From a virus, in IMG/VR virus record IMGVR_UViG_3300017706_002460, positions 1-20,859 of that record: a DNA stretch of 20,859 nt, one strand, 5' to 3'. A program made the translations under genes and the position numbers. Positions 6,990-20,859 of this stretch are shown here, one piece after another (within the stretch, counting starts at the first letter, position 1; every line of letters starts with the position of its first letter). Below the pieces are notes generated by a model, which was not told the origin of the DNA, made no database searches, and was given only the letters and a program-made list of their open reading frames with translations.

Positions 6990-7346
6990 TTATTTTTTCC
7001 ATTTATTACGTCCTACTAATAAACCAATAATACCATAATTAGCTATATCAATAAAAGTATCTTCCATTCCTTCTCCTTCAACAAATGCTCTACCATTTAA
7101 TAATAGATTTTTTAATCTACTTATTTTATCTGTTAATCTAATACATAATCCAGTAAGTGAAAATGTTTTATCATTATCGTTATTTAAAATATCTCCACCT
7201 AAAGCTATATTATTTAACCCATAATCCATATGTTTAGCCGCAAACATTACATACATTTCATTACTTATCTTTTTAAATTCTTCAGATAATTCTGGGTATT
7301 CTTTCTCGAATATTTTTACTATTTGTTCTTTATGAATTTGTTCCAT
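6990..7346 (-). CDS. DUF1599 / nucleotide modification associated domain 1 (Nmad1)-like protein
   Basis: A 118-aa helical protein. It has the family pattern I associate with DUF1599 (Nmad1): KHMDYGLNNIALGG (38-51), then LCIRLTDKISRLKNLL (67-82), and a conserved acidic end MEDTFIDIANYGIIGLL (94-110). These Asp/Glu-rich helices fit a role acting on a nucleotide, but the reaction is not established. Families of this name were noted for linkage to DNA base modification, which agrees with the 7-deazaguanine genes elsewhere in the window. It starts inside the end of the 72-aa gene (17-bp overlap), so translation is probably coupled. The family call is from memory of the motif layout. Confidence 0.7.
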   Translation of the reverse strand: MEQIHKEQIVKIFEKEYPELSEEFKKISNEMYVMFAAKHMDYGLNNIALGGDILNNDNDKTFSLTGLCIRLTDKISRLKNLLLNGRAFVEGEGMEDTFIDIANYGIIGLLVGRNKWKK

Positions 7347-9456: not shown

Positions 9457-11079
9457 TTACATTCCCATCATTGGGTTTACTGGTTCATTATTATCATTAT
9501 TTTTAGGTTCGTCTACTACTATACATTCTGTAAGTAATACTGTACCTGCTACTGAAGCTGCATTTTCAAGTGCTGTTCTAGTAACTTTAGTGGGATCAAT
9601 AATACCTTCTTTTTTCATATTAACCGTTTTATCAGTTTTAATATTATACCCATTCCAAGTATTTATTTTTCCTTCTATTAAAGAACGACCTGTCATTTGA
9701 GCTTCAACAGGTGCATAACCAGCATTTGTAAGTATTTGTTCAAAGGGTTTACCACATGCCTTATAAACAATATTTGATCCTATACATTTACTACAAGATG
9801 GTATTGCTTCTCTTGCATATAGTAAAGCAGCTCCCCCACCAGGTACAATACCTTCTTCAATAGCGGCTTTGGTAGCATGTAAAGCATCATCAACTCTATC
9901 TTTCTTTTCATTCATTTCTGTTTCAGTGTAACCACCAACATGAATAATAGAAACTCCTCCAGCCATTTTAGCTAATCTTTCTTGTAATTTTTCAGCTTCA
10001 AAAGGTGTAGTTGCTTTATCAATTTGAGTTGTTAGTTGTTCTAACCTTTCTTGAACATCTTTTTCCTCTCCTTTACCATCAATTATAGTTGTTTTATCTT
10101 TTCCTATAGTTACTGTACGAGCTTCTCCAAACCATTCCCAAGAAAATTTATCAAGTTTCATTCCTTTATCCTTATCAAATACTTGACCTCCAGTTACAGT
10201 AGCAATATCTTCTAATATTAATTTTCTTCTTTCACCAAAATCTGGGGCTTTGACAGCAGCTACTTTAATTGTGCCTCTTGCTTTATTAACAATTAATGTT
10301 GCTAAAGCTTCACTATCTACATCTTCAGCTATTATTAATAAAGATTTATTAGTATTAGAAACAGCTTCTAACATTGGTAATAAGTCTTTAACTTTAGAAA
10401 GTTTTTGATTTAAAACTAAGATATATGGGTCTTCTAAAGTACAAGTCATTGTGTTGTTATTTGTAACAAAATAATGAGATAAATATCCTCTATCAAACTG
10501 CATCCCTTCAACAGTTTCAAGATAAGTATCACCAGTTTTAGATTCTTCAATATGAACTACACCTTCAACACCTACTTTATCCATTGCTGTAGCAATTAAT
10601 TTACCAACTTCTTCATCATTATTTGCTGATATTGTTGCTATTTGTTCTAATTGGTCTTCTGATGAAATATCTTCTGATATTTTTTCTCTAAGATTTTCTA
10701 CAGCCTTTTTAACTGCTTTATCTATACCTCTTTTAATTTCAACAGCATTTGCACCATTAGCTAAATGTTGTAAACCATCATTAATCATTTCTCTAGCTAA
10801 TAAAGTAGAAGTAGTTGTTCCATCTCCTGCTTTGTCTGCTGTTTTAATAGAAGCTTCTCTTACTAAATTAACTCCTAAATTTTCTACAGGATCACTTACT
10901 GATATATGTTTAGCAACAGTTACACCATCTTTAGTTGATATAGGTGATTCATGTTGTCTTTCAATAACTACATTTCTACCATTAGGTCCTAATGTTGATA
11001 CTACAGCATTTGCTAATATATCAATACCTTTTACTAATTTTTTTCTTCCCTCAGGGCCGAATTCTATAATTTTACTCAT
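9457..11079 (-). CDS. groEL: Chaperonin GroEL (Hsp60), full length
   Basis: A 540-aa group I chaperonin (E. coli GroEL is 548). All domains are present in order. The equatorial domain has STLGPNGRNVVIE and the nucleotide motif GDGTTTSTLLARE, with Asp86 equal to the E. coli catalytic-magnesium Asp87. The apical domain has MQFDRGYLSHYFVTN, keeping the substrate/GroES-binding aromatics, and LLPMLEAV. The hinge and second equatorial half follow with RVDDALHATKAAIEEGIVPGGG, including the Asp equivalent to Asp398. The tail is short (NPMMGM) rather than a long GGM repeat. Oddities are SWEWFG where TLEDLG is usual, and a Cys-containing loop SCSKCIGSN. It overlaps groES by 8 bp, and should form the folding cage with it for phage proteins. 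Confidence 0.98.
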   Translation of the reverse strand: MSKIIEFGPEGRKKLVKGIDILANAVVSTLGPNGRNVVIERQHESPISTKDGVTVAKHISVSDPVENLGVNLVREASIKTADKAGDGTTTSTLLAREMINDGLQHLANGANAVEIKRGIDKAVKKAVENLREKISEDISSEDQLEQIATISANNDEEVGKLIATAMDKVGVEGVVHIEESKTGDTYLETVEGMQFDRGYLSHYFVTNNNTMTCTLEDPYILVLNQKLSKVKDLLPMLEAVSNTNKSLLIIAEDVDSEALATLIVNKARGTIKVAAVKAPDFGERRKLILEDIATVTGGQVFDKDKGMKLDKFSWEWFGEARTVTIGKDKTTIIDGKGEEKDVQERLEQLTTQIDKATTPFEAEKLQERLAKMAGGVSIIHVGGYTETEMNEKKDRVDDALHATKAAIEEGIVPGGGAALLYAREAIPSCSKCIGSNIVYKACGKPFEQILTNAGYAPVEAQMTGRSLIEGKINTWNGYNIKTDKTVNMKKEGIIDPTKVTRTALENAASVAGTVLLTECIVVDEPKNNDNNEPVNPMMGM

Positions 11080-11374
11080 TGTCTTCTTTTTTTAATTTTG
11101 CTAATATTTGATTTTCAGGTCCTACAAAATAATCATCTCCATCATGTTGTAATTTAGTAAATCCTTGTGTAGGTAATACAACAATATCTCCTATTTTTGA
11201 TTGTGTTTCAATAAATGTTCCTGATATTGTGTGTTGTCCAGGTCCTACTGCTACAACTTCTCCATGTTCATTTTTATCTTTTCCCATATCTGGTACTACG
11301 ATTGAGCCGTATTTAGCTTCTTCAGCCTCTATTGGTTTTACAATAACGGCATTAAATAGTGCTTCTAATTTCAT
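11072..11374 (-). CDS. groES: Co-chaperonin GroES (Hsp10)
   Basis: A 100-aa GroES (usual length 95-100). The beta-barrel start LFNAVIVKPIEAEEAKYGSI is followed by the mobile loop with GSIVVP, where IVV replaces the IVL tripeptide that docks on GroEL. The core HGEVVAVGPGQ and KIGDIVVLP are clear, as is the end FVGPENQILAKL. Unlike T4, whose gp31 is a remote GroES replacement working with host GroEL, this protein is a recognisable GroES and sits directly before its own groEL with an 8-bp overlap. It overlaps the 98-aa gene by 4 bp. Translation of the three genes is probably coupled. Confidence 0.96.
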   Translation of the reverse strand: MKLEALFNAVIVKPIEAEEAKYGSIVVPDMGKDKNEHGEVVAVGPGQHTISGTFIETQSKIGDIVVLPTQGFTKLQHDGDDYFVGPENQILAKLKKEDNE

Positions 11375-11667
11375 AATTTAGTAATTTCTGTTAATGTTTG
11401 TAATTCTTTTTTAATTTTATTCCATTCAGATAAATATTCTTTAACTGAATTGTATTGTTTATCTCCCCTGTTAAGTTTTGCTTTCATAATAGAATGTAGG
11501 GCTTGTCCAAAATCAGAATAATGCCCAATTGGCTTTTCATAATTTTTTCCTTCACTACCTTTTTCTAAATATTTAGCTTGTGGAGTTATTACCTCATATG
11601 CTGTGTAGCAATGAGAGTCTTTGCCTATGAAATAAGGCTCTAGTAAATCATCTTTGATTATAGTCAT
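11371..11667 (-). CDS. Hypothetical protein, 98 aa, upstream of groES
   Basis: No family recognised. The N-terminal half, LLEPYFIGKDSHCYTAYEVI, and GKNYEKPIGHYSDFGQALHSIMKAKL look like a small alpha/beta fold with an amphipathic helix, and the C-terminal half is a Lys/Glu-rich helix (SVKEYLSEWNKIKKELQTL). There is no membrane segment. It is the first gene after the promoter-like motif at 11693-11722 and overlaps groES by 4 bp (ATGA-type junction), so it belongs to the chaperonin transcript. A housekeeping role unrelated to folding is possible. Confidence 0.75.
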   Translation of the reverse strand: MTIIKDDLLEPYFIGKDSHCYTAYEVITPQAKYLEKGSEGKNYEKPIGHYSDFGQALHSIMKAKLNRGDKQYNSVKEYLSEWNKIKKELQTLTEITKL

Positions 11668-11692
11668 ATAACTTAATTTTTATTATTGATGT

Positions 11693-11722
11693 AATATACA
11701 AAAAATTTATAAATAAACCAAC
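11693..11722 (-). promoter_or_regulatory. Promoter-like motif before the 98-aa/groES/groEL run (GTTG-N18-TGTATATT)
   Basis: On the minus strand GTTG (11719-11722) is followed after 18 bp by TGTATATT (11693-11700). It matches the motifs before gp44 and folE in seven of eight bases of the downstream box and three of four of the upstream box. It lies in the 72-bp gap 11668-11739, 25 bp before ATG 11667. The spacer also contains TATAAATT, near the T4 late box. Confidence 0.5.
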
Positions 11723-11724
11723 CT

Positions 11725-11733
11725 AAGGGCGTA
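11725..11733. promoter_or_regulatory. Candidate operator AAGGGCGTA near the groES/groEL promoter
   Basis: The 9-mer AAGGGCGTA on the plus strand lies 2 bp upstream of the GTTG box of the chaperonin promoter-like motif. The same 9-mer occurs on the minus strand inside the hsp20 promoter region at 12220-12228. I found no third copy, and GGGCG is rare in this AT-rich window. A shared regulator of the chaperone genes is possible but unproven. Confidence 0.3.
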
Positions 11734-11739
11734 TTTTGG

Positions 11740-12162
11740 TTAATTTATTTTTAAAACTTTTGGCATAGCTTCTTTTGCAAATGGAATAGTCACAATTAGT
11801 AAACCATCATTAAAATTAGCTGTTGCTTTTTTAAGGTCGAACTTAGTTCCTACTTTATATCCTAAATTAAAAGAACGTTTTGCAATTCCTCTATGGATAT
11901 AATTTCGGGATTTTGGATCAGGGGTTTTTCCCTTATCATAATTAAAGGTGATCATGTCTCCTTCTAACTTAACTTCAATGGCTTCTTTAGGAATGCCAGT
12001 ACAAGCTAACTCAAAGGTTAAACCTATATCATCTTCAAAAATATTAATTGGGTATTGTTGTTTGGCTTGTGCAGCCGGAACGAATTGGGTGTTTGCTTCG
12101 AATAAATTTCGAAATAATAGGTCAAACGGATGGTGTGACCTTTCTAAAAAATGTGTACTCAT
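11740..12162 (-). CDS. hsp20: Small heat shock protein, Hsp20/alpha-crystallin family
   Basis: A 140-aa small heat-shock protein that holds unfolding proteins for refolding by ATP-dependent chaperones. The N-terminal arm HHPFDLLFRNLFEAN precedes the alpha-crystallin domain (about 37-128), with INIFEDDIGLTFELACTGIP, a LEGDMITF strand, and the family signature ATANFNDGLLIVTIP. The C-terminal VLKIN provides the I/V-x-I-type anchor used in oligomer assembly. Hsp20 genes are known in T4-like marine phages. It has its own 77-bp leader with a TATAAATA box and lies between the clamp gene and the groES/groEL run. Confidence 0.93.
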   Translation of the reverse strand: MSTHFLERSHHPFDLLFRNLFEANTQFVPAAQAKQQYPINIFEDDIGLTFELACTGIPKEAIEVKLEGDMITFNYDKGKTPDPKSRNYIHRGIAKRSFNLGYKVGTKFDLKKATANFNDGLLIVTIPFAKEAMPKVLKIN

Positions 12163-12988: not shown

Positions 12989-13918
12989 TTAAAATTTAAA
13001 AAATTTATTTCTGTGAGGATTTAAACTTAATGACCAACCTAAATCATTATAAAATCCTTCTAATTTGTTTAATAAAATACTGTCGAATACTTTTTGTCTA
13101 TCAGCATATTTCTCAATGAATGTATGAATTTGTTTTGGTATATCATAGTCTAGAAAAGCAATTGCTTCAATTCTATAAGGATTGTTTTTTAAATAAATCC
13201 ATTTAATTTTTTCTCCTTGTGTTATATAACTATACTTTTTATCTAATTTCCAAAATCTTAATAAATCATTGTAAGCAATAGCTGCTTTAACAGCTGCGGG
13301 TGCTCCTTTACCTACTAAAGAAAACATTTCTCCTGCTCTAGCTTTACGTTCAGTAAATTTATTTAATTTTTTTACTGCTTGGGGGTTACCAATTTTTTCT
13401 AAAGGTATTTTTCCACTTAATATTTTATTTCTAAATTCTAATAATTGAGCATCTATTTCTGATTTTGGTATTCCTTTAAGTACTTGTTCTAAACAACTTT
13501 TAAAAAATTTACCAAATACTGGTGGGAAATTAGCTTTTTTAAATTCTAAACCCTTTACATCCAATGTTTCATTTTCAATACCTTCCTGTTTAGTAATCCA
13601 TTGTGCATATCTTCTTGTAGCTCTAAAATAAGCTGATCTAATTACACATTCAGTTTTCATCTCTAATCTATGAGAAGAAACATTAAAGCAGTCTTTAGCT
13701 AATCTATCATAATCCTCAGTTATAATATCTTGATATTTAAGTGCTTGTTCTTCTAAAACACTATCCCTTTCTTTATCTGACATTTTATCAAAATTAGGGT
13801 ATAAATATCTTAATAAAGGTTCTGCATTAAAGTAATTAGAATCTGTATCAACATAAGCACAATAATTTGTATCACCTGGATCGCAAATCCACCATGGGGT
13901 ATCTTCTAAATGTTTCAT
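12989..13918 (-). CDS. 43B: DNA polymerase gp43, C-terminal part (palm motif C, thumb)
   Basis: A 309-aa C-terminal portion of a family B replicative polymerase. Motif C, AYVDTDSNYF, has Asp24 and Asp26, one of which is a catalytic metal ligand. Further on, KKYSYITQGEKIKWIYLK is the KKxY-like thumb-side segment, and the C-terminus ends RNKFFKF, resembling a clamp-binding tail. Together with part A it totals 914 aa against 898 for T4 gp43, so nothing large is missing. Its ATG overlaps the part A stop by 4 bases (ATGA at 13915-13918), so translation could be coupled and the two chains could assemble. Alternatively the break is a one-base frameshift (see findings). Confidence 0.9.
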   Translation of the reverse strand: MKHLEDTPWWICDPGDTNYCAYVDTDSNYFNAEPLLRYLYPNFDKMSDKERDSVLEEQALKYQDIITEDYDRLAKDCFNVSSHRLEMKTECVIRSAYFRATRRYAQWITKQEGIENETLDVKGLEFKKANFPPVFGKFFKSCLEQVLKGIPKSEIDAQLLEFRNKILSGKIPLEKIGNPQAVKKLNKFTERKARAGEMFSLVGKGAPAAVKAAIAYNDLLRFWKLDKKYSYITQGEKIKWIYLKNNPYRIEAIAFLDYDIPKQIHTFIEKYADRQKVFDSILLNKLEGFYNDLGWSLSLNPHRNKFFKF

Positions 13919-15732
13919 ATTTTACCTTTAATTACTTTGTTCATGTGTCTATTAGCGCATAAAGCACTTTCTTGTATAATACGCTGCCCACTTAATGTAA
14001 TTGCTTCAGATAACAATACATTACCATATCTAAACGCACCTAAAGCAGTTGCTCCATATAAACTATTTAATAAAATTTTCATAGTATATTGTTTCATGTG
14101 ATAAGAAGCACCTAACTCTTTATTTCCTGATTTAAATGCTTTTTTCATTTGGTTCTTATATAAAACTCTTTCATCAAACCATTTATTTAAAATTGTAGAT
14201 AATACAGACTCATGATCTGTTTTAAACATTACTCCATTAGCTGAAATAGCCCATTTATTTTCTTCAATAATTTCAATTAAATCTCCTATAGCTATTTTAG
14301 TACGTTTACGTTTAGAATTTTCAATTAATATTTCTTCTTTAGAATCTTTTGCTTTTAAATCATTTAACCCTAAACGATTATTTCTATCATCAGCATCTAA
14401 AATTCTTCCTACCATTGTTTCTTTACCAATATTAATTGTCATAATAATTGAAGGATATAGTGAGGTTAAATCTTCATCAAACATATAATTATATAATCCA
14501 GCTTGGGGGCAAAACAAATAACCACCAGCATAGGATATTTGATTTCCTTTTGCATCCCGTTTTACATAAGGATTTACATCTTTTGGAGGTGGGATTATTT
14601 CTTGACTTAATAAATAAGCTGAAATTGCCCCATCTTGGGTTTTTGTATTTGCGTATACTTCTTGGTAATTATGTTTTCCTTTATGAGCTAAATTATAAGT
14701 TAAAGCTAAATAACCTAATTTTTCATCTAATAATTTTAAAATCTCAACATCAACAAAATTATATTTAATAAATTTATTTATGTCAGATTTAAATAAGTCA
14801 TCAAGATTACCTTCATATTCAACTTTATTTACTCCAACATATTTTTCTCCAATAGCATCTAATCTCATTGATGGTTCATCCGCCCAGCTATATTTTTTAT
14901 GTAAACACATATAATCTAAAGATTCAACACCTACTATTTGAAGATATTGACCTCCATTTCTTCTATTATTATACCAAGGAGTTGGTCTTACTATCCCAAT
15001 TGGGGATAAATAATTCATAGCATCTTCAACTCCTATTACATTACACATTCTATAGTATAAATAAGGAATATCAAAATAATCACTATTCCACCCAACAATA
15101 ACATCAGGATCAATATCCCTAAACATTTCCCCAAAAACTAATAATAACTCTTCTTCTGTTTTACAAGGAATTATTTCTCTACCATTTTTACTTATAGTGT
15201 GGTTTAATTGATTTTCTTCATCTAAGATAACAATACCCCATTTAGGTTTTCCTTCTTTTGCCTGTTTATTATACCAAGCAATAGAAGTAATTCTTTTAGG
15301 AGCTGATTTAATATATTCAACAGTTAAAGCATCTCCCATTTCACATTCAATATCAAAAAATAATTCTTTATGAGTAGTAGATGGGGTGTCATCAACACCA
15401 TACTTTTCAATTAAATATTTTTGGTGTGCAGGCATATCATGCCAATGTAAATTTGGTGTATTATTTTGAAAATATTGACTGTCTGTATTATTTGTGTATT
15501 TATAGTTTGATATTCGTTTTAAATATTCCCCATTTAAGCCCCTTGCAACATGGTTATCTCTATCACACTCTACATATGCTATATTATCCCAAACATCTAA
15601 TTCATAACCTTTATCAGTCCAAAGATGTATTAAATGTTGATTTTTCTTTAATTTAAAAGGTAAATTTTTAAATGCTGGACTTTGAGGGTGATATTTACTA
15701 AAACTTTCTGCAAATATCTTTTTATACATCAA
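13915..15732 (-). CDS. 43A: DNA polymerase gp43, N-terminal part (exonuclease, palm motifs A and B)
   Basis: A 605-aa N-terminal portion of a T4-type family B polymerase. The proofreading exonuclease has Exo I FDIEC (Asp127, Glu129), Exo II VIVGWNSDYFDIPY (217-230) and Exo III KYNFVDVEIL (Tyr330, Asp334). The polymerase palm has motif A DLTSLYPSI with Asp427, and the fingers have motif B KILLNSLYG (Lys558, Asn562). It stops at ...NKVIKGKI, before motif C, so it cannot be a complete polymerase alone. The start overlaps the pyrophosphohydrolase gene by 11 bp. A split in T4-like gp43 is known from some Aeromonas phages, so two subunits are plausible. Confidence 0.93.
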   Translation of the reverse strand: MMYKKIFAESFSKYHPQSPAFKNLPFKLKKNQHLIHLWTDKGYELDVWDNIAYVECDRDNHVARGLNGEYLKRISNYKYTNNTDSQYFQNNTPNLHWHDMPAHQKYLIEKYGVDDTPSTTHKELFFDIECEMGDALTVEYIKSAPKRITSIAWYNKQAKEGKPKWGIVILDEENQLNHTISKNGREIIPCKTEEELLLVFGEMFRDIDPDVIVGWNSDYFDIPYLYYRMCNVIGVEDAMNYLSPIGIVRPTPWYNNRRNGGQYLQIVGVESLDYMCLHKKYSWADEPSMRLDAIGEKYVGVNKVEYEGNLDDLFKSDINKFIKYNFVDVEILKLLDEKLGYLALTYNLAHKGKHNYQEVYANTKTQDGAISAYLLSQEIIPPPKDVNPYVKRDAKGNQISYAGGYLFCPQAGLYNYMFDEDLTSLYPSIIMTINIGKETMVGRILDADDRNNRLGLNDLKAKDSKEEILIENSKRKRTKIAIGDLIEIIEENKWAISANGVMFKTDHESVLSTILNKWFDERVLYKNQMKKAFKSGNKELGASYHMKQYTMKILLNSLYGATALGAFRYGNVLLSEAITLSGQRIIQESALCANRHMNKVIKGKI

Positions 15733-16228
15733 AAAATTGTTTTAGGTTTGGTCTAAAGTAATTTATTGATTTCATTACTTTTTTATCTCGAGTTCTATAA
15801 ACAACATAACGGTTCCCTACTCTTTCAAAATGACAATTTTCTTTTTGTTCAGCTGCTCTAACATTAACTGTTTCGATTGCTTCCTGTGGGGTGTTACAAG
15901 ATTTAGACATATTTGATGCTTGAACTTCTTGATATGCTTTCCAAATATGACCTTTTAAACCATGTAACATAGTACCATTACCTAATGAAACATAAGCAAT
16001 ATCACATAATGCATCTAAAACCTCTACAATATCACCTTTTTCACAAGCTTCTTTATATTCAGCTAATTCTTCCTGGATAAAATCGTAAACAAACATCCAT
16101 TCTTTTTTTTCAGGAATTGTTGGTTCATAATTATTTGGTTTACCAAATGTTTCATTGAATTCTTCTACCTCATTTACAAAAGGTACATTCCAATATTTAT
16201 TTCCTAATTTTTCTTTTTTTTCACTCAT
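15722..16228 (-). CDS. MazG/phosphoribosyl-ATP pyrophosphohydrolase-like nucleotide pyrophosphatase
   Basis: A 168-aa protein with the all-alpha NTP-pyrophosphohydrolase core. After an N-terminal FNETFGKPNNYEP segment come EELAEYKEACEKGD (Glu53, Glu54, Glu57) and VEVLDALCDIAYVSLG (Glu69, Asp72, Asp76), the acidic E-E-x2-E ... E-x2-D-x3-D magnesium site. Then EVQASNMSKS, typical of a PRA-PH-like family common in Bacteroidetes and their phages. It probably hydrolyses a (d)NTP or alarmone-like nucleotide to the monophosphate. It stands between folE and the polymerase, 11 bp after folE, which suits dNTP-pool control. The exact substrate is unknown. Confidence 0.85.
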   Translation of the reverse strand: MSEKKEKLGNKYWNVPFVNEVEEFNETFGKPNNYEPTIPEKKEWMFVYDFIQEELAEYKEACEKGDIVEVLDALCDIAYVSLGNGTMLHGLKGHIWKAYQEVQASNMSKSCNTPQEAIETVNVRAAEQKENCHFERVGNRYVVYRTRDKKVMKSINYFRPNLKQFFDV

Positions 16229-16239
16229 AACTTTTTTAT

Positions 16240-16938
16240 TTAAATTTGATGTCCTCCATTATTAATTTTTAAACTGTCAAAAAACTCTTTTCTTGCTAAA
16301 TTAGTGTTTTGTCTAAATACACCTGATGCTTTAGTTGTTACCATACCAGCTCCTTGATGTTTTACTCCTCTACAACTTACACAATTATGTCCTGCAACTA
16401 TAGTTACTATGACACCTCTATTACCTTCAGTAATTTGATGCACAGCATTATGAATAGCTGATGTTAATTGTTCTTGTATTGCACCTCTTCTACCAAATAA
16501 TTCAACTATTCTATTTAATTTAGATAACCCAACTACTTGACCATCTTCCCCAGCTATATAACCTATATGAACTACACCACTAATTGTTTGATGATGATGA
16601 GAACACATTGATGTTAATGGAATATTTCTCTCAATTACAATTCCATCATAACCATCAGAAGGAAATGATGTAATAGGAGACATTGGAGTATATCTACCTG
16701 CCCATAAATCATTTACATATGCTTTAGCAACCCTTCTTGGGGTATCAGATGAATTTGGATCATTTTTCCAATCACAATCTAATGCATCTAAAAACTCTCC
16801 ATATGCTTTAGTAGCTTTTTCTATCATTTTTTCCTTTTGTTTATCACTTAAAGGGAAATTAGTTGCAACTCCATTTGCAAAACCTTTTTGTACAACTTCT
16901 AACTTTTCATGAATTTTAGCGTTTTTATTTTTTGCCAT
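16240..16938 (-). CDS. folE: GTP cyclohydrolase I
   Basis: A 232-aa FolE that turns GTP into 7,8-dihydroneopterin triphosphate, the first step towards 7-deazaguanine bases. The zinc ligands are visible: Cys112 and His115 in TSMCSHHHQTISG, and Cys186 in HNCVSCRGVKHQ. The substrate loop GLSKLNRIVELFGRRGAIQEQLT and the end MVTTKASGVF are conserved. The N-terminal 30 residues are a basic extension. With queC, queD and queE in the same block, it serves preQ0 synthesis rather than folate. It has its own promoter-like motif and an A/T-only leader (AACGTAAAATAAATAAAA) without a Shine-Dalgarno sequence, so it may start a separate transcript running into the replication genes. Confidence 0.96.
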   Translation of the reverse strand: MAKNKNAKIHEKLEVVQKGFANGVATNFPLSDKQKEKMIEKATKAYGEFLDALDCDWKNDPNSSDTPRRVAKAYVNDLWAGRYTPMSPITSFPSDGYDGIVIERNIPLTSMCSHHHQTISGVVHIGYIAGEDGQVVGLSKLNRIVELFGRRGAIQEQLTSAIHNAVHQITEGNRGVIVTIVAGHNCVSCRGVKHQGAGMVTTKASGVFRQNTNLARKEFFDSLKINNGGHQI

Positions 16939-16956
16939 TTTTATTTATTTTACGTT

Positions 16957-16986
16957 AATATACGAAAACTTTATTAGAAAACCAAA
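16957..16986 (-). promoter_or_regulatory. Promoter-like motif before folE (TTTG-N18-CGTATATT)
   Basis: On the minus strand TTTG (16983-16986) is followed after 18 bp by CGTATATT (16957-16964), 18 bp before the folE ATG. Both boxes and the spacing are identical to the motif before gp44. It fits exactly in the gap 16939-16986. The spacing and TTTG recall Bacteroidetes -33 elements, but the downstream box is not their TAnnTTTG. Confidence 0.5.
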
Positions 16987-17385
16987 CTATTTTAGGTAAT
17001 CTTGTATAGTTTCACTATCATCTCTCTCCCAAGGATAAATTATCCATTCATCTCCCTCATGTTCAAAGGCATATATGTTAGGTTCCAAACATGCCGTATG
17101 AGGTTTATAATGTAAGACAGCAGTAGTATAATCCTTCCAATTATCAAGAGTTACTCCACTATCACATATATCATCTACTATTAAACATTCATCAGGTTCA
17201 TAATGTTTAGGAATATCTATATATTCTAAATCTAAAATATGTGATATTAAAACAGCAGGAATTAATCCTCCTCTTTTTAAACCATGAACATATTTAATTT
17301 CTGGGTAGTTGAGTTTAATTTGATAACATAGCTTATCAACTAATTCTTCAACTTCATTCCATCCAACATAAATTTTATTATCCAT
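16987..17385 (-). CDS. Type I phosphoribosyltransferase
   Basis: A 132-aa purine/pyrimidine phosphoribosyltransferase. I start it at MDNKIYVGWN (17385), 1 bp after the nuclease stop; an ATG at 17418 would add 11 residues overlapping that gene. The PRPP motif is CLIVDDICDSGVTL (67-80), the PPi loop region is VHGLKRGGLIPAVLISHIL (33-51), and the end WERDDSETIQDYL resembles xanthine/guanine-type enzymes. It should join a nucleobase to PRPP. Its place beside folE and the queE group suggests purine recycling for the phage, with guanine or hypoxanthine as likely bases; the sequence does not decide. Confidence 0.85.
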   Translation of the reverse strand: MDNKIYVGWNEVEELVDKLCYQIKLNYPEIKYVHGLKRGGLIPAVLISHILDLEYIDIPKHYEPDECLIVDDICDSGVTLDNWKDYTTAVLHYKPHTACLEPNIYAFEHEGDEWIIYPWERDDSETIQDYLK

Positions 17386-17386
17386 A

Positions 17387-17725
17387 TTATCTTTTTCCAC
17401 CAAAATATTCTGTAGCATGACCTTCAGTTATTAATTGTTTATTTATATTTTTATCTTCTACTAATAAAGTACCTAAACATCTTCCATACTTTCCAACCCC
17501 ATGGGATTGAAGAATAAAATCCCCATCACCTAATAGTTCTATAAGTCTAGCTTTAGCAGCTAATCCTAATTTTTTTTCTTCTAAATCTCTAGTTCTTGAT
17601 TCAGGAGCATTCATGCCCATCATTCTAATCCTTACTTTTTTCCAAGTATCAAATCCTAAATCTACAAGAGCATCAACAGTATCACCATCAACTACTCTAT
17701 CTAATTTTGCGTTATATTTATACAT
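17387..17725 (-). CDS. Staphylococcal-nuclease-like (SNase) protein, cytoplasmic
   Basis: A 112-aa thermonuclease-fold protein. The N-terminal strand RVVDGDTVDALVDLG holds Asp13 and Asp15 of the calcium site. RIRMMGMNAPESR provides the catalytic Arg and Glu42. GKYGRCLGTL provides the second catalytic Arg, at 82 (counterparts of Staphylococcus Arg35, Glu43, Arg87). It is shorter than secreted nucleases and has no signal peptide, so it should act inside the host cell. It lies between the 44-aa ORF (8-bp overlap) and the phosphoribosyltransferase (1-bp gap). Host DNA degradation for nucleotide recycling is a reasonable role, given its neighbours. Confidence 0.9.
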   Translation of the reverse strand: MYKYNAKLDRVVDGDTVDALVDLGFDTWKKVRIRMMGMNAPESRTRDLEEKKLGLAAKARLIELLGDGDFILQSHGVGKYGRCLGTLLVEDKNINKQLITEGHATEYFGGKR

Positions 17726-17852
17726 TTTTTATATATTCTTTAAGTTTATCTATTAATAATAATACTTCATCTGGTTCCATAGTTACAGAGCAACATATGT
17801 TAACATTTTCTTCTATTTCCTCTAATATCTCAAGTGCTTCTTCTTTAGACAC
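17718..17852 (-). CDS. Small acidic ORF with GTG start, 44 aa
   Basis: Translated by hand. A GTG at 17850-17852 overlaps the queE stop (GTGTCTAA) and opens 44 codons ending TAA at 17718-17720, overlapping the nuclease start by 8 bp. It fills what would otherwise be a 119-bp gap. The product starts M/VSKEEALEILEEIEENVN, is strongly acidic, and ends with a helix VLLLIDKLKEYIKNV; the middle has ICCSV. It could be a small regulatory or accessory protein. Overlap at both ends fits the operon style here. No homologue recognised. Confidence 0.5.
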   Translation of the reverse strand: MSKEEALEILEEIEENVNICCSVTMEPDEVLLLIDKLKEYIKNV

Positions 17853-18627
17853 AACGTTCAGTATTAAAAGCTATAATATGAGATCTACCTGTAAATCTCC
17901 AACCTCTATCTCTTACAAAATTCATTACCTCAGGATATGATTCCATTAAACTTTCTCTAGTATCACCTGCGGGCATTGCCCAAACTTTATCATCTGGTAT
18001 ATTACATTCATTTAAAAATTCTTCTACTTCTTCTACCATAGATAAATTTTTATCTAATACTGGTTTGATATGATAATCAGAATGATACTCAATAGATTTA
18101 TTTATTGCCTCATAATTTAATCTTAATCTATTATGGGTTTTAATCATCCTTTCATCAACATCTTTTCCTTGAGGTGTTATTGCACCTAACTTTGGAATAG
18201 AATTACTAAATTTAGGACTAATAGATAATAAATTAATAGGATAATCTGTAGGGAGAAAATGAGAACCTTCTGTTTCAATAGTAATAAAAATATCTCTTTT
18301 ATGAGCAAAGTGAGTTAATTCATTTACTAATTTAGGATGCATTGTTGGTGATCCCCCAGTTAACATCATTTCTTTTATATGTGGATGTTGATCATACATA
18401 TCTATTATATCTTGAAATGAATATGTTCCTTTTTCAGGGTGAATACTTGTATACCATGAGTCACACCATCCTCCCTCACCAAAATAACATCTATGAGTGC
18501 AGCCTGTTGTTCTAACTACTATTGTTGGATATCCTTGTCTTGATCCTTCAGATTGTACTGCTGTATATACTTCTAATACTGGGATAATTTTATTATAATC
18601 TTCTATCCTTTTTAATTGTTTGTGCAT
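17845..18627 (-). CDS. queE: 7-carboxy-7-deazaguanine synthase, radical SAM
   Basis: A 260-aa QueE, which converts 6-carboxy-tetrahydropterin to 7-carboxy-7-deazaguanine (CDG). The N-terminus has YTAVQSEGSRQGYPTIVV, the usual QGEG-like substrate region. The SAM/4Fe-4S cysteines are Cys43, Cys47 and Cys55 in TGCTHRCYFGEGGWCDSWY, giving CX3CX7C instead of the usual CX3CX2C. MLTGGSPTMHP is the GGEP-like SAM motif (GGSP here), and ETEGSHF and SISPKFSNS are typical QueE segments. It follows queD after a 42-bp gap. The extended cysteine loop is a lineage variation, since non-canonical spacing is known in other QueE proteins. Confidence 0.9.
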   Translation of the reverse strand: MHKQLKRIEDYNKIIPVLEVYTAVQSEGSRQGYPTIVVRTTGCTHRCYFGEGGWCDSWYTSIHPEKGTYSFQDIIDMYDQHPHIKEMMLTGGSPTMHPKLVNELTHFAHKRDIFITIETEGSHFLPTDYPINLLSISPKFSNSIPKLGAITPQGKDVDERMIKTHNRLRLNYEAINKSIEYHSDYHIKPVLDKNLSMVEEVEEFLNECNIPDDKVWAMPAGDTRESLMESYPEVMNFVRDRGWRFTGRSHIIAFNTERCV

Positions 18628-18669
18628 GTGTTAATTTTTTAAAGTGGTTTTTCATTCACTGTTATACCT

Positions 18670-19134
18670 TTATTCAATGTAATATGCTGCATTTTTACCG
18701 TGTTCCATAAACTTAATTTTAGTAACCCTAACTCTATTATTAGTTTCAGTTTTAACAAAATTATTAAGCTTACTATAAATATATTCAGCAAATTTTTCTG
18801 CGCCAGTAGCTTCTACTTCTCTTAACTGAATAACTCCAGCTTGATCTAGTGCTTTAAATGAAACAATTCGTGGATCGTCTTTTGCTACAATTACAGTATG
18901 ATCAAACATATAATCCATCCAAGCTTTTGGTTGCATTCCATCAATAAGAGTATTAGCTCTTTTCATTCCACCAAAATCCCAAACCCAATTACGATTATCT
19001 AAATCCCCTTCAAATGTTGCTTTAAAAGAAATACCATACCCATGTAAAAATCGACAATGGGTTTCAACAGCTTTCCATTGTCTAAAACAACAACTAAAAC
19101 CATCAAATACTTTTGTAGATTGATACCTAGGCAT
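18670..19134 (-). CDS. queD: 6-carboxy-tetrahydropterin synthase-like (QueD/PTPS family)
   Basis: A 154-aa T-fold protein that should make 6-carboxy-5,6,7,8-tetrahydropterin from the FolE product. The core is THCRFLHGYGISFKATFEG, with candidate catalytic Cys27 and zinc ligand His31. MFDHTVIV carries the catalytic-Asp/His segment; EATGAEKFAEYI and KFMEHGKNAAYY are the typical substrate-binding end. The first zinc-ligand segment, normally FSAAH, reads FSCCF (13-17), and the HGH pair reads HGY, so two of three standard zinc ligands differ. It overlaps thioredoxin by 8 bp. The pathway context makes QueD much the best assignment, with metal binding uncertain. Confidence 0.85.
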   Translation of the reverse strand: MPRYQSTKVFDGFSCCFRQWKAVETHCRFLHGYGISFKATFEGDLDNRNWVWDFGGMKRANTLIDGMQPKAWMDYMFDHTVIVAKDDPRIVSFKALDQAGVIQLREVEATGAEKFAEYIYSKLNNFVKTETNNRVRVTKIKFMEHGKNAAYYIE

Positions 19135-19387
19135 TAAACCAAACTAAAATATCATTTATACTCATACCACCCCCATTTGTTCTTTTAAGTTCAGTTCCTT
19201 GCCTATCAGAAATAATTAATGTAGGTACACTTTTAACATTATATTGCTCTGTTGCTATAGCATCATAATCTGTGTTGATTTTTTTAACAGGTATCTTGTA
19301 TTGTTTTGTTAATTGTTCCATAACAGGTCCTAATAACCTACAAGGTTCACACCAAGGTGCTGTAAAATATATAATTCCTTTATCCAT
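19127..19387 (-). CDS. Thioredoxin-like protein with CEPC active site
   Basis: An 86-aa thioredoxin-fold reductant. The active site is APWCEPCRLLGPVMEQL (Cys13, Cys16), with the dipeptide EP in place of the usual GP. The cis-Pro is in SVPTLIISDRQG. It lacks the first beta strand and helix of a 105-aa bacterial thioredoxin, a normal trait of phage versions. The leader AAATAAATAAAAATAAA has no Shine-Dalgarno sequence. The protein may supply electrons to a ribonucleotide reductase (none in this window) or maintain cysteine enzymes of the block. A polymerase processivity role as in T7 is possible but unsupported. Confidence 0.88.
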   Translation of the reverse strand: MDKGIIYFTAPWCEPCRLLGPVMEQLTKQYKIPVKKINTDYDAIATEQYNVKSVPTLIISDRQGTELKRTNGGGMSINDILVWFNA

Positions 19388-19407
19388 TTTATTTTTATTT
19401 ATTTAAT

Positions 19408-19626
19408 TTATACTAATTCTTCTATTATACCTACAGCTTCAGATACTATTAATAACGTTACTGCAACACTAATGTTAAAAGGAATAAAAATATAACCTAA
19501 TATTCTTATACCAGACTTAACAAAACTGATTTTTTGATGCCATTCAGCATCAGGTAATTGTTTATTGTTTTTTAAAGCCATTTGACTTACTAATTTATTT
19601 ACTTCTTTTTCTAATTTTTTATCCAT
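19408..19626 (-). CDS. Small membrane protein, 72 aa
   Basis: The first 40 residues are polar and helical (KKLEKEVNKLVSQMALKNN). From about residue 42 comes a hydrophobic stretch, ILGYIFIPFNISVAVTLLIV, then SEAVGIIEELV: one membrane span, possibly two with the loop at PFN. It starts 8 bp before the queC stop, so it is coupled to queC, and precedes thioredoxin by 20 bp. There is no signal peptidase site that I can see. Unknown function; holin-like use is not supported by the context of biosynthetic genes. Confidence 0.72.
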   Translation of the reverse strand: MDKKLEKEVNKLVSQMALKNNKQLPDAEWHQKISFVKSGIRILGYIFIPFNISVAVTLLIVSEAVGIIEELV

Positions 19627-20449
19627 AATTTTCTAATAATTGTTTAACATGATTTTCTGCTACTTTATAATCTACAGGACCTGTTTCATCAGCATAACTC
19701 GTAGGATCAGGTCTTCCTAGTTTTATAAATGCTTCTATTCTTTCTACAGATGATGCAGATTTATAATCTGAATACCATTTGTAAGCGTTAGTTTCTGGTC
19801 TATGATAATGTTTAATTGGTTTATAAGATGTGTGAGTTCTTTTATAAACTTCATCAAAATCTAAATCTAATATTTTACATGAAGATTGACCATCTAATAA
19901 TATATCATATTTATCCCCATCTATAAAAGGTGTATAATACTTTACTTTATCAGCTTCCCAATTTCCTTGTTTAAAAGCTTCATAATCAGCATCTCTAAAT
20001 TCTTGTCTACAATCCGGGTAAATAGCATGATCACCTGCATGAATACCCATCGCAATATCTACATCACAATTTTTTTCATTTGCAATTGATAATGCTACTG
20101 CTTGAATAATTGATGAAAACATTTTATTTCTATTAGGTACAACAGTATCTTTCATATTATCTTCTTCATAATGTCCTTCTGGGACATCTTCTCCACCTTC
20201 AACTAAATTTGAATTTAATAAATCAACTAAACCATCTAGTTTTATTATTTGAAATTTTACTGTTTGATTATTTATATTTAAATAATTAACTAATTCTTGG
20301 GCTCGTTTTAATTCTATTTTATGTTTTTGACCATAATCAAAAGCAACTGCTGTTACATCATAATCATGAGCTAATAGATGGAGTAAAACTGTACTTGAAT
20401 CCATCCCACCTGATAGTGATAATACTGCTTGTTTTTTATTTATTGACAT
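19619..20449 (-). CDS. queC: 7-cyano-7-deazaguanine synthase-like (QueC), zinc cysteines absent
   Basis: A 276-aa PP-loop ATPase that converts CDG to preQ0 through an amide (ADG). SGGMDSS (13-19) is the PP-loop, followed by VTAVAFDYGQKHKIELKRA. The central segment IAMGIHAGDHAIYPDCR and the end VERIEAFIKLGRPDPTSY match QueC. However, the four C-terminal zinc-binding cysteines (SCY...CGxCxSC in ordinary QueC) are absent: THTSYKPIK and YSDYKSASSVERIEAF stand in their places. The structural zinc site is therefore lost or replaced, and activity could stop at CDG or ADG. It overlaps the upstream transglycosylase-like gene by 10 bp. Confidence 0.85.
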   Translation of the reverse strand: MSINKKQAVLSLSGGMDSSTVLLHLLAHDYDVTAVAFDYGQKHKIELKRAQELVNYLNINNQTVKFQIIKLDGLVDLLNSNLVEGGEDVPEGHYEEDNMKDTVVPNRNKMFSSIIQAVALSIANEKNCDVDIAMGIHAGDHAIYPDCRQEFRDADYEAFKQGNWEADKVKYYTPFIDGDKYDILLDGQSSCKILDLDFDEVYKRTHTSYKPIKHYHRPETNAYKWYSDYKSASSVERIEAFIKLGRPDPTSYADETGPVDYKVAENHVKQLLENYG

Positions 20450-20859
20450 TCTTTAAATTTTTTAAATTGTGTTAAATTGTGATTAATATTATATAATGTT
20501 TCTTGGCTTAGGGGTATTAATCCTAATTTATCAATCTTAGTTGATGATTTAGTATATAGCCCATTAGAACTATATTTAACTCCTTCTAAACCATGTATAA
20601 TAGGATTAGAAGTATCTATTGATTCAATAAAAGGAAAATCATTATAATAAGCAAATTCTTGAGGTAAAGCACATCCTAATAAATGTACTCTATCACTTTT
20701 TTCTATTAAATTACTTTTATACATCTTAGATATAGTCATTATACGACCTATCATTTTACCAACTAATGGGTTAGGATGAGGAAATTCTTCAGCATACCAA
20801 TCTGCACCATAACTAAATGCTATTTTTTTATAACCTTGTATTTTTAATATATTATAACA
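20440..20859 (-). CDS. dpdA: DpdA/TGT-like DNA guanine transglycosylase, C-terminal part
   Basis: The frame is open to the right edge, so the start lies outside the window; 139 residues are visible (hand-translated beyond the first Met). Landmarks are IAFSYGADWYAEEFPHPNP, a GRIMTISKMY segment, HLLGCALPQEFAYY and FIESIDTSNPIIHG. The last segment carries an Asp where TGT-fold enzymes place their nucleophile. This pattern matches the phage tgt/DpdA-type enzymes that exchange guanine for a 7-deazaguanine in DNA. The 10-bp overlap with queC and the folE/queD/queE genes downstream support a DNA-modification role rather than a tRNA one. A tRNA-acting TGT cannot be fully excluded without the N-terminal half. 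Confidence 0.75.
   Translation of the reverse strand, partial: CYNILKIQGYKKIAFSYGADWYAEEFPHPNPLVGKMIGRIMTISKMYKSNLIEKSDRVHLLGCALPQEFAYYNDFPFIESIDTSNPIIHGLEGVKYSSNGLYTKSSTKIDKLGLIPLSQETLYNINHNLTQFKKFKECQ

Follow-up and report, generated by a model that had tools for sequence, protein, structure and literature searches.

The 20,859-bp IMG/VR fragment IMGVR_UViG_3300017706_002460 (hereafter, the window) carries at positions 15722-20859 what is likely to be a 7-deazaguanine DNA-modification cassette of a T4-like tailed phage with a family B DNA polymerase. Phages are known to protect their DNA from host restriction enzymes by means of 7-deazaguanine bases. The source is an uncultivated, probably marine phage, and its assignment to the T4-like tailed phages is suggested by the family B DNA polymerase, a clamp-loader-like AAA ATPase and other window genes. 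A sequence-only reading of the window had recognized FolE, QueD, QueE and QueC on one strand together with a DpdA-like gene; all five were confirmed by Pfam, PHROGs and tblastn, and five further cassette genes were added (MazG-like, phosphoribosyltransferase, SNase-type nuclease, thioredoxin and a 72-residue orphan). All cassette genes are on the minus strand:

20440..20859, minus strand: dpdA, 3' half (residues 125-263 of 263), the 5' half being beyond the window end; phrog_19058, tblastn, and AlphaFold/Foldseek of the full protein
19619..20449, minus strand: queC, 276 residues, without a glutamine amidotransferase (GAT) domain; PF06508, 7.6e-38
19408..19626, minus strand: orphan, 72 residues; similar small open reading frames (ORFs) in many related cassettes (phmmer)
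19127..19387, minus strand: thioredoxin, 86 residues; PF00085, 9.4e-15
18670..19134, minus strand: queD, 6-carboxytetrahydropterin synthase; phrog_2389, 5e-41, and PF01242, 1.5e-12
17845..18627, minus strand: queE, radical SAM 7-carboxy-7-deazaguanine synthase; phrog_2076, 4.3e-50, and PDB QueE 5tgs
17387..17725, minus strand: SNase-type nuclease; PF00565, 2.3e-12, and phrog_452
16987..17418, minus strand: phosphoribosyltransferase (PRTase) resembling xanthine-guanine phosphoribosyltransferase (XGPRT), between queE and folE; NCBIfam xanthine PRTase, 7.9e-12, and PDB 1vdm, 8.5e-11
16240..16938, minus strand: folE, GTP cyclohydrolase I; PF01227, 1.2e-42, phrog_2197, 6.5e-59, and many PDB FolE matches
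15722..16228, minus strand: MazG/PRA-PH-type nucleotide pyrophosphohydrolase; PF01503, 7.5e-11

FolE, QueD, QueE and QueC would convert GTP to 7-cyano-7-deazaguanine (preQ0), and a zinc-free DpdA of the type found in the CP220 group of Campylobacter phages would exchange guanine for preQ0 in replicated phage DNA. DNA carrying preQ0 would be shielded from host restriction enzymes, and occupancy by the modified nucleoside (dPreQ0) may be high, perhaps complete. The XGPRT-like PRTase would turn the released guanine into GMP, feeding GTP back to FolE.

The dpdA fragment (20440-20859), for which Pfam returned no match, matches phrog_19058 at 2.6e-19 and is 39% identical (tblastn) to the annotated "DNA guanine transglycosylase" (DpdA) of Flavobacterium phage vB_FspM_immuto_2-6A (MW353175; hereafter, immuto). 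Additional tblastn matches were obtained in 14 CP220-type Campylobacter phage records, in which the gene is mostly annotated as "hypothetical". The CP220-type DpdA was reportedly named DpdA3 by Cui in 2023. The half missing from the window was supplied by the IMG/VR contigs L004, L005 and L006, which are 99% identical to the window fragment across the shared part. The full protein matches phrog_19058 at 3.4e-42 and is 36-39% identical to the CP220-type protein. A scan with a broader alignment revealed at least 581 IMG/VR stretches encoding this protein type. The full gene and two motifs located in the window are as follows:

L006:9629-10420 (relative contig): full dpdA, 263 residues
20653-20685, minus strand: HLLGCALPQEF motif of DpdA
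20602-20622, minus strand: SIDTSNP motif of DpdA, the likely nucleophile motif

Pfam and NCBIfam searches with the full protein returned only a weak DUF6610 match and no tRNA-guanine transglycosylase (TGT) Pfam family, PF01702 included, and PDB sequence searches gave nothing useful; structure comparison was therefore needed. An AlphaFold model built on 36 relatives has a pLDDT of 93.6 and a pTM of 0.90. All 50 PDB matches listed by Foldseek are either TGTs or the DNA preQ0 insertase DpdA (7ui4), which ranks tenth among the matches listed; the best E-value is 2.3e-8, and query TM-scores range from 0.57 to 0.64 across them. Matches in a viral structure library include gp42 of Cellulophaga phage phiST (TM 0.83) and phage queuine-ribosyltransferase-like proteins. 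Profile alignment with hhalign also linked the DpdA profile to phiST gp42 (3e-11) and was uninformative with other single TGT/DpdA sequences.

Alignments of the DpdA-type protein show no zinc cysteine cluster, and no tRNA-type (zinc-type) TGT was found above cut-off in 12 related contigs. Residues D53, PD84, Q115, G186 (in HLLG186C) and D206 (in SID206TSNP) are invariant in the window clade, immuto and a CP220-type protein; we take their order to resemble that of the catalytic aspartates and base-binding residues of TGTs, a likeness by order only. The window DpdA has a TGT-like fold and is not a tRNA-type TGT. The full upstream gene, whose grouping with tRNA-specific TGT the sequence-only reading had set out as the contrary outcome, groups with the CP220-type phage protein.

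The enzyme is predicted to act on DNA. DpdA is required for 7-deazaguanine in the DNA of phage CAjan, and such bases block restriction (PMC6884629). In CP220 and CPt10 DNA, 100% of deoxyguanosine (dG) is replaced by deoxy-7-amido-7-deazaguanosine, or dADG (PMC8306585). The sequence-only reading, right on the genes and probably right on the modification, had proposed that part of the guanines is replaced. "Part" may be an underestimate, since replacement is complete in the characterised CP220-type relative.

Three observations concern the surroundings of this gene in relatives. In Campylobacter phage vB_CjeM_WX1, a likely CP220-type transglycosylase (L002:9460-10236) is annotated as "hypothetical protein". 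A kinase-like gene comes next after dpdA in WX1 and immuto, and just ahead of it in phiST. Upstream of dpdA, the closest relatives encode the UV-damage endonuclease UvdE (L006:8406-9302) and an ATP-dependent DNA ligase (L006:5978-7255).

The gene context was surveyed in 30 related loci, each extending 9 kb or more downstream of dpdA; because these loci share a relationship, near-identical contigs accounting for a few of them, the counts are not independent. QueC and QueE are encoded in all 30 loci, QueD in 29, the family B polymerase (PolB) in 28 and FolE in 26, all on one strand, and the cassette lies on a single strand in no fewer than 26 of the 30. Chance does not explain this block, which is found again in dozens of related viral loci. 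Thioredoxin (24/30) and MazG-like genes (23/30) are common. The PRTase is encoded in 7 loci, and the SNase-type nuclease, found in 6, is a lineage-specific passenger. The cassette was also found on contigs L107, L109 and L111, which are assigned to genome bins of Pelagibacter and Flavobacteriales but are probably of phage origin.

Several known phages resemble the window in part. Immuto has the same order of QueD, QueE, PRTase, FolE, pyrophosphohydrolase and DpdA, and its MazG-like protein is 73% identical to that of the window. In contrast, QueF and a formyltransferase are encoded next to its dpdA, its DNA polymerase belongs to family A, and its queC lies away from the block. In the CP220 group (Eucampyvirinae, infecting Campylobacter), the homologous DpdA-type protein is annotated as hypothetical, and QueC, unlike that of the window, is of the zinc type and encoded elsewhere in the genome. 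Phage phiST features a QueD-QueE-FolE-MazG block, the DpdA-like gp42 and a related PRTase, but its genome has no QueC, its PRTase is located elsewhere and its DNA polymerase is of the polymerase III type. CAjan and Rosebush, members of group 2 of Hutinet 2019 (PMC6884629), combine DpdA/DpdA2 with FolE, QueD, QueE and QueC, without amidotransferase, and have the same predicted product class; their DpdA proteins, however, belong to other subfamilies, and the related phages tested (Seurat and Ares) have zinc-type QueC. Stenotrophomonas phage vB_SmaS_Bhz54 carries a QueE-QueC-QueD-FolE-transglycosylase cassette with a PRTase segment, although it is an unrelated small siphophage.

The likeliest product, as predicted from the genes, is dPreQ0, dADG being less likely; in the CP220 group the product is dADG. 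The gene set, seen in fragments, fits the preQ0-type group 2, defined by DpdA with FolE, QueD, QueE and QueC and without amidotransferase or QueF (PMC6884629). As noted in the sequence-only reading, no later-step gene is evident: the window proteins scanned contain neither QueF nor a glutamine-amidotransferase domain, QueF is absent above cut-off from 18 related contigs and from an overlapping set of 28 (one of 170 kb), and GATase_6 is absent from 19 related contigs. The lack of QueF and GATase_6 in the related contigs underlies the expectation of dPreQ0 (or dADG). Two contigs gave weak QueF matches, which fell below the cut-off and were not counted; one of them sits where FolE, a T-fold relative, is encoded. 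The sequence-only reading had listed preQ0, ADG or 7-carboxy-7-deazaguanine (CDG); the first two are retained, and CDG is unlikely because QueC is present. Nor does the gene set point to an archaeosine (dG+) type, as QueC carries no GAT fusion and the related contigs, in which ArcS was not searched, have neither QueF above cut-off nor GATase_6.

A gene beyond the window could still tailor the final base further, the conceivable end products being dPreQ1, dG+ and formyl or methyl derivatives. The closely related immuto cassette, with QueF and a formyltransferase beside dpdA, offers a precedent, and the window is a fragment, so that such a gene could sit outside it. We consider this unlikely in view of the negative QueF and GATase_6 searches, the models for which do not cover every tailoring family. 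The sole formyltransferase found, in relative L106, sits in a sugar-nucleotide cassette and was rejected as a base-tailoring enzyme.

A preQ0 product depends on QueC, and the window QueC is of an unusual type. Motifs listed for the family are SGGxDS, YxQxHxxE, VPxRN and YPDC, and the zinc motif C(x)8CxxCxxC is described as a family hallmark (PMC13329287). The window protein retains SGGMDSS, YGQKHKIE, VPNRN and YPDC, along with the zinc-region tyrosine. All four zinc cysteines, however, are absent, as seen when it is aligned with QueC of E. coli and phages. Two segments replace the motif:

19817-19837, minus strand: THTSYKP, QueC zinc-motif replacement
19727-19771, minus strand: SDYKSASSVERIEAF, QueC zinc-motif replacement

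Immuto QueC (64-68% identical) and every IMG/VR relative reaching the motif likewise have no cysteine at the four positions, while all four are found in E. coli and in seven other phages and viruses, one CP220-type phage among them. A scan of bacterial and archaeal genomes identified zinc-free QueC in Cysteiniphilum, Facilibium, Legionella gresilensis and Marine Group II archaea. The gene adjoins those of FolE and QueE, often with QueD, in the archaea, and usually those of QueE and QueD in the gammaproteobacteria. Some Marine Group II proteins (L126, L127, L131 and L140) bear a C-terminal extension resembling methionine sulfoxide reductase B. In the five bacterial genomes checked, the zinc-free form is the only full-length QueC and occurs together with TGT and QueF. 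For this reason, zinc-free QueC is probably a working preQ0 synthase, which would imply that the zinc site is not universally needed. The idea that zinc-free QueC stops at ADG was rejected on three grounds: the CP220 type, which has ADG in its DNA, is one that retains the zinc cysteines; in immuto the zinc-free QueC occurs alongside QueF, an enzyme requiring preQ0; and the bacteria with TGT and QueF have no other full-length QueC.

The remaining pathway enzymes also show lineage features. FolE retains the CSHHH and NCVSC motifs. The QueE cluster motif (18463-18501, minus strand) reads CX3CX7C in place of CX3CX2C; the same form was found in all marine relatives checked, in phiST and in immuto, and Cysteiniphilum has CX3CX8C. 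By alignment, QueD (19036-19086, minus strand) is a FRQW/HCRFLHGY variant without the HGH of E. coli QueD, and the FRQW/HCRxLHGY form is also present in phi38:2 and immuto. The dpdA and queC genes overlap by 10 bp. The 72-residue orphan (19408..19626) gave no match in Pfam and PHROG scans. Separately, an Rfam search returned no match.

The PRTase is predicted to use guanine (or xanthine). Residues corresponding to E. coli Gpt D88, D89 and D92, in the loop binding phosphoribosyl pyrophosphate (PRPP), and to K115 and W134, in the base site, are invariant in the PRTase alignment. The relevant motifs are the following:

17155-17178, minus strand: VDDICDSG, PRPP loop of the PRTase
17098-17109, minus strand: YKPH, containing the base-site lysine of the PRTase
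17026-17049, minus strand: EWIIYPWE of the PRTase

Only 17 of 50,697 phage records match this PRTase at 1e-5: immuto, the phiST group, Stenotrophomonas, Pseudomonas and Brevundimonas phages, and one 4-kb fragment. Among isolated phages, where checked, nearly all occurrences are in 7-deazaguanine phages; the corresponding genes were found in immuto, phiST, Bhz54, StAshley and Baskent_P4_1. In StAshley, the PRTase directly follows FolE. In Bhz54, the PRTase segment is fused to the N-terminus of FolE, which spans residues 118-296 of the joint protein; the segment gave no match to a Pfam PRTase family, although it contains a WVVFPWE motif and a loop of the PRPP type.

As base exchange releases one guanine per base and FolE consumes GTP, guanine recycling is the simplest reading, and the PRTase probably recycles the guanine displaced by DpdA. 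We propose, more tentatively, that some 7-deazaguanine phages possess a guanine-recycling loop in which a Gpt-like PRTase makes GMP, returned as GTP to FolE. Our literature search found no description of such a loop, and Hutinet 2019 does not mention phosphoribosyl enzymes.

The same gene could support another route, in which deazaguanine nucleotides come from the PRTase, dGTP is removed by the MazG-like enzyme, the phage polymerase inserts modified dGTP and DpdA has a marginal or other role. The PRTase and MazG-like genes do lie within the cassette, kinase-like genes adjoin dpdA in immuto, phiST and a CP220-type phage, and a modified-dGTP route was proposed for Campylobacter phages before DpdA was recognised there (PMC6884629). 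However, this route would need the PRTase, which only 7 of the 30 relatives have, whereas DpdA and QueC occur together in all 30. Moreover, the PRTase resembles guanine/xanthine enzymes and has the Gpt base-site residues, and MazG-like enzymes are also common in phages unconnected with the pathway. Incorporation from the nucleotide pool is thus quite improbable. Still less probable is a role of the pathway in host or phage tRNA, as a source of queuosine precursor: although QueC, QueD and QueE have cellular relatives in queuosine or archaeosine operons, the transglycosylase has neither a tRNA-TGT family match nor the zinc cluster, is fixed beside DNA replication genes and is homologous to a protein of phages with fully modified DNA (PMC8306585), and the window contains no tRNA gene.

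Some points weigh against insertion of preQ0 into DNA by DpdA with guanine recycling. The modified base in this phage and its clade is a prediction from genes. This DpdA type is remote from those studied biochemically, with no Pfam TGT match and 11-16% identity in structure alignments, and its active site was assigned by residue order, not by superposition. The window QueC lacks the hallmark zinc motif. The related genomes are fragments, and a tailoring gene may be located elsewhere in them. Finally, since so few relatives encode it, the PRTase can be an accessory at most, and the pathway does not require it.

Elsewhere, the window encodes a family B DNA polymerase, a clamp-loader-like AAA ATPase, a PD-(D/E)XK nuclease, glycosyltransferases and a DegT aminotransferase. 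The polymerase (12989-15732, minus strand) is split into two ORFs with a 4-bp overlap (ATGA), the split falling between SLYGA (14050-14064) and the YVDTDS motif (13838-13855); among the related loci, 16 share the split and 10 have a fused PolB. A 118-residue DUF1599 protein ("nucleotide modification associated domain 1", PF07659, 1.4e-8) is encoded at 6990-7346 (minus strand). GroEL, a GroES-like ORF (11072-11374) and an Hsp20 protein are encoded together at 9457-12162 (minus strand).

Two elements go beyond what we found described: a QueC lineage without the zinc site and a PRTase proposed to recycle guanine. The CP220-type transglycosylase, which in Campylobacter phages is associated with replacement of all guanine, is widespread among uncultivated viruses, and an unannotated Campylobacter phage gene (phrog_19058) is now linked to the TGT fold. 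The zinc-free lineage puts in question the requirement of QueC for its hallmark zinc site. The PRTase provides a testable proposal for how phages handle displaced guanine; if true, whole-genome base exchange would partly supply its own precursor.

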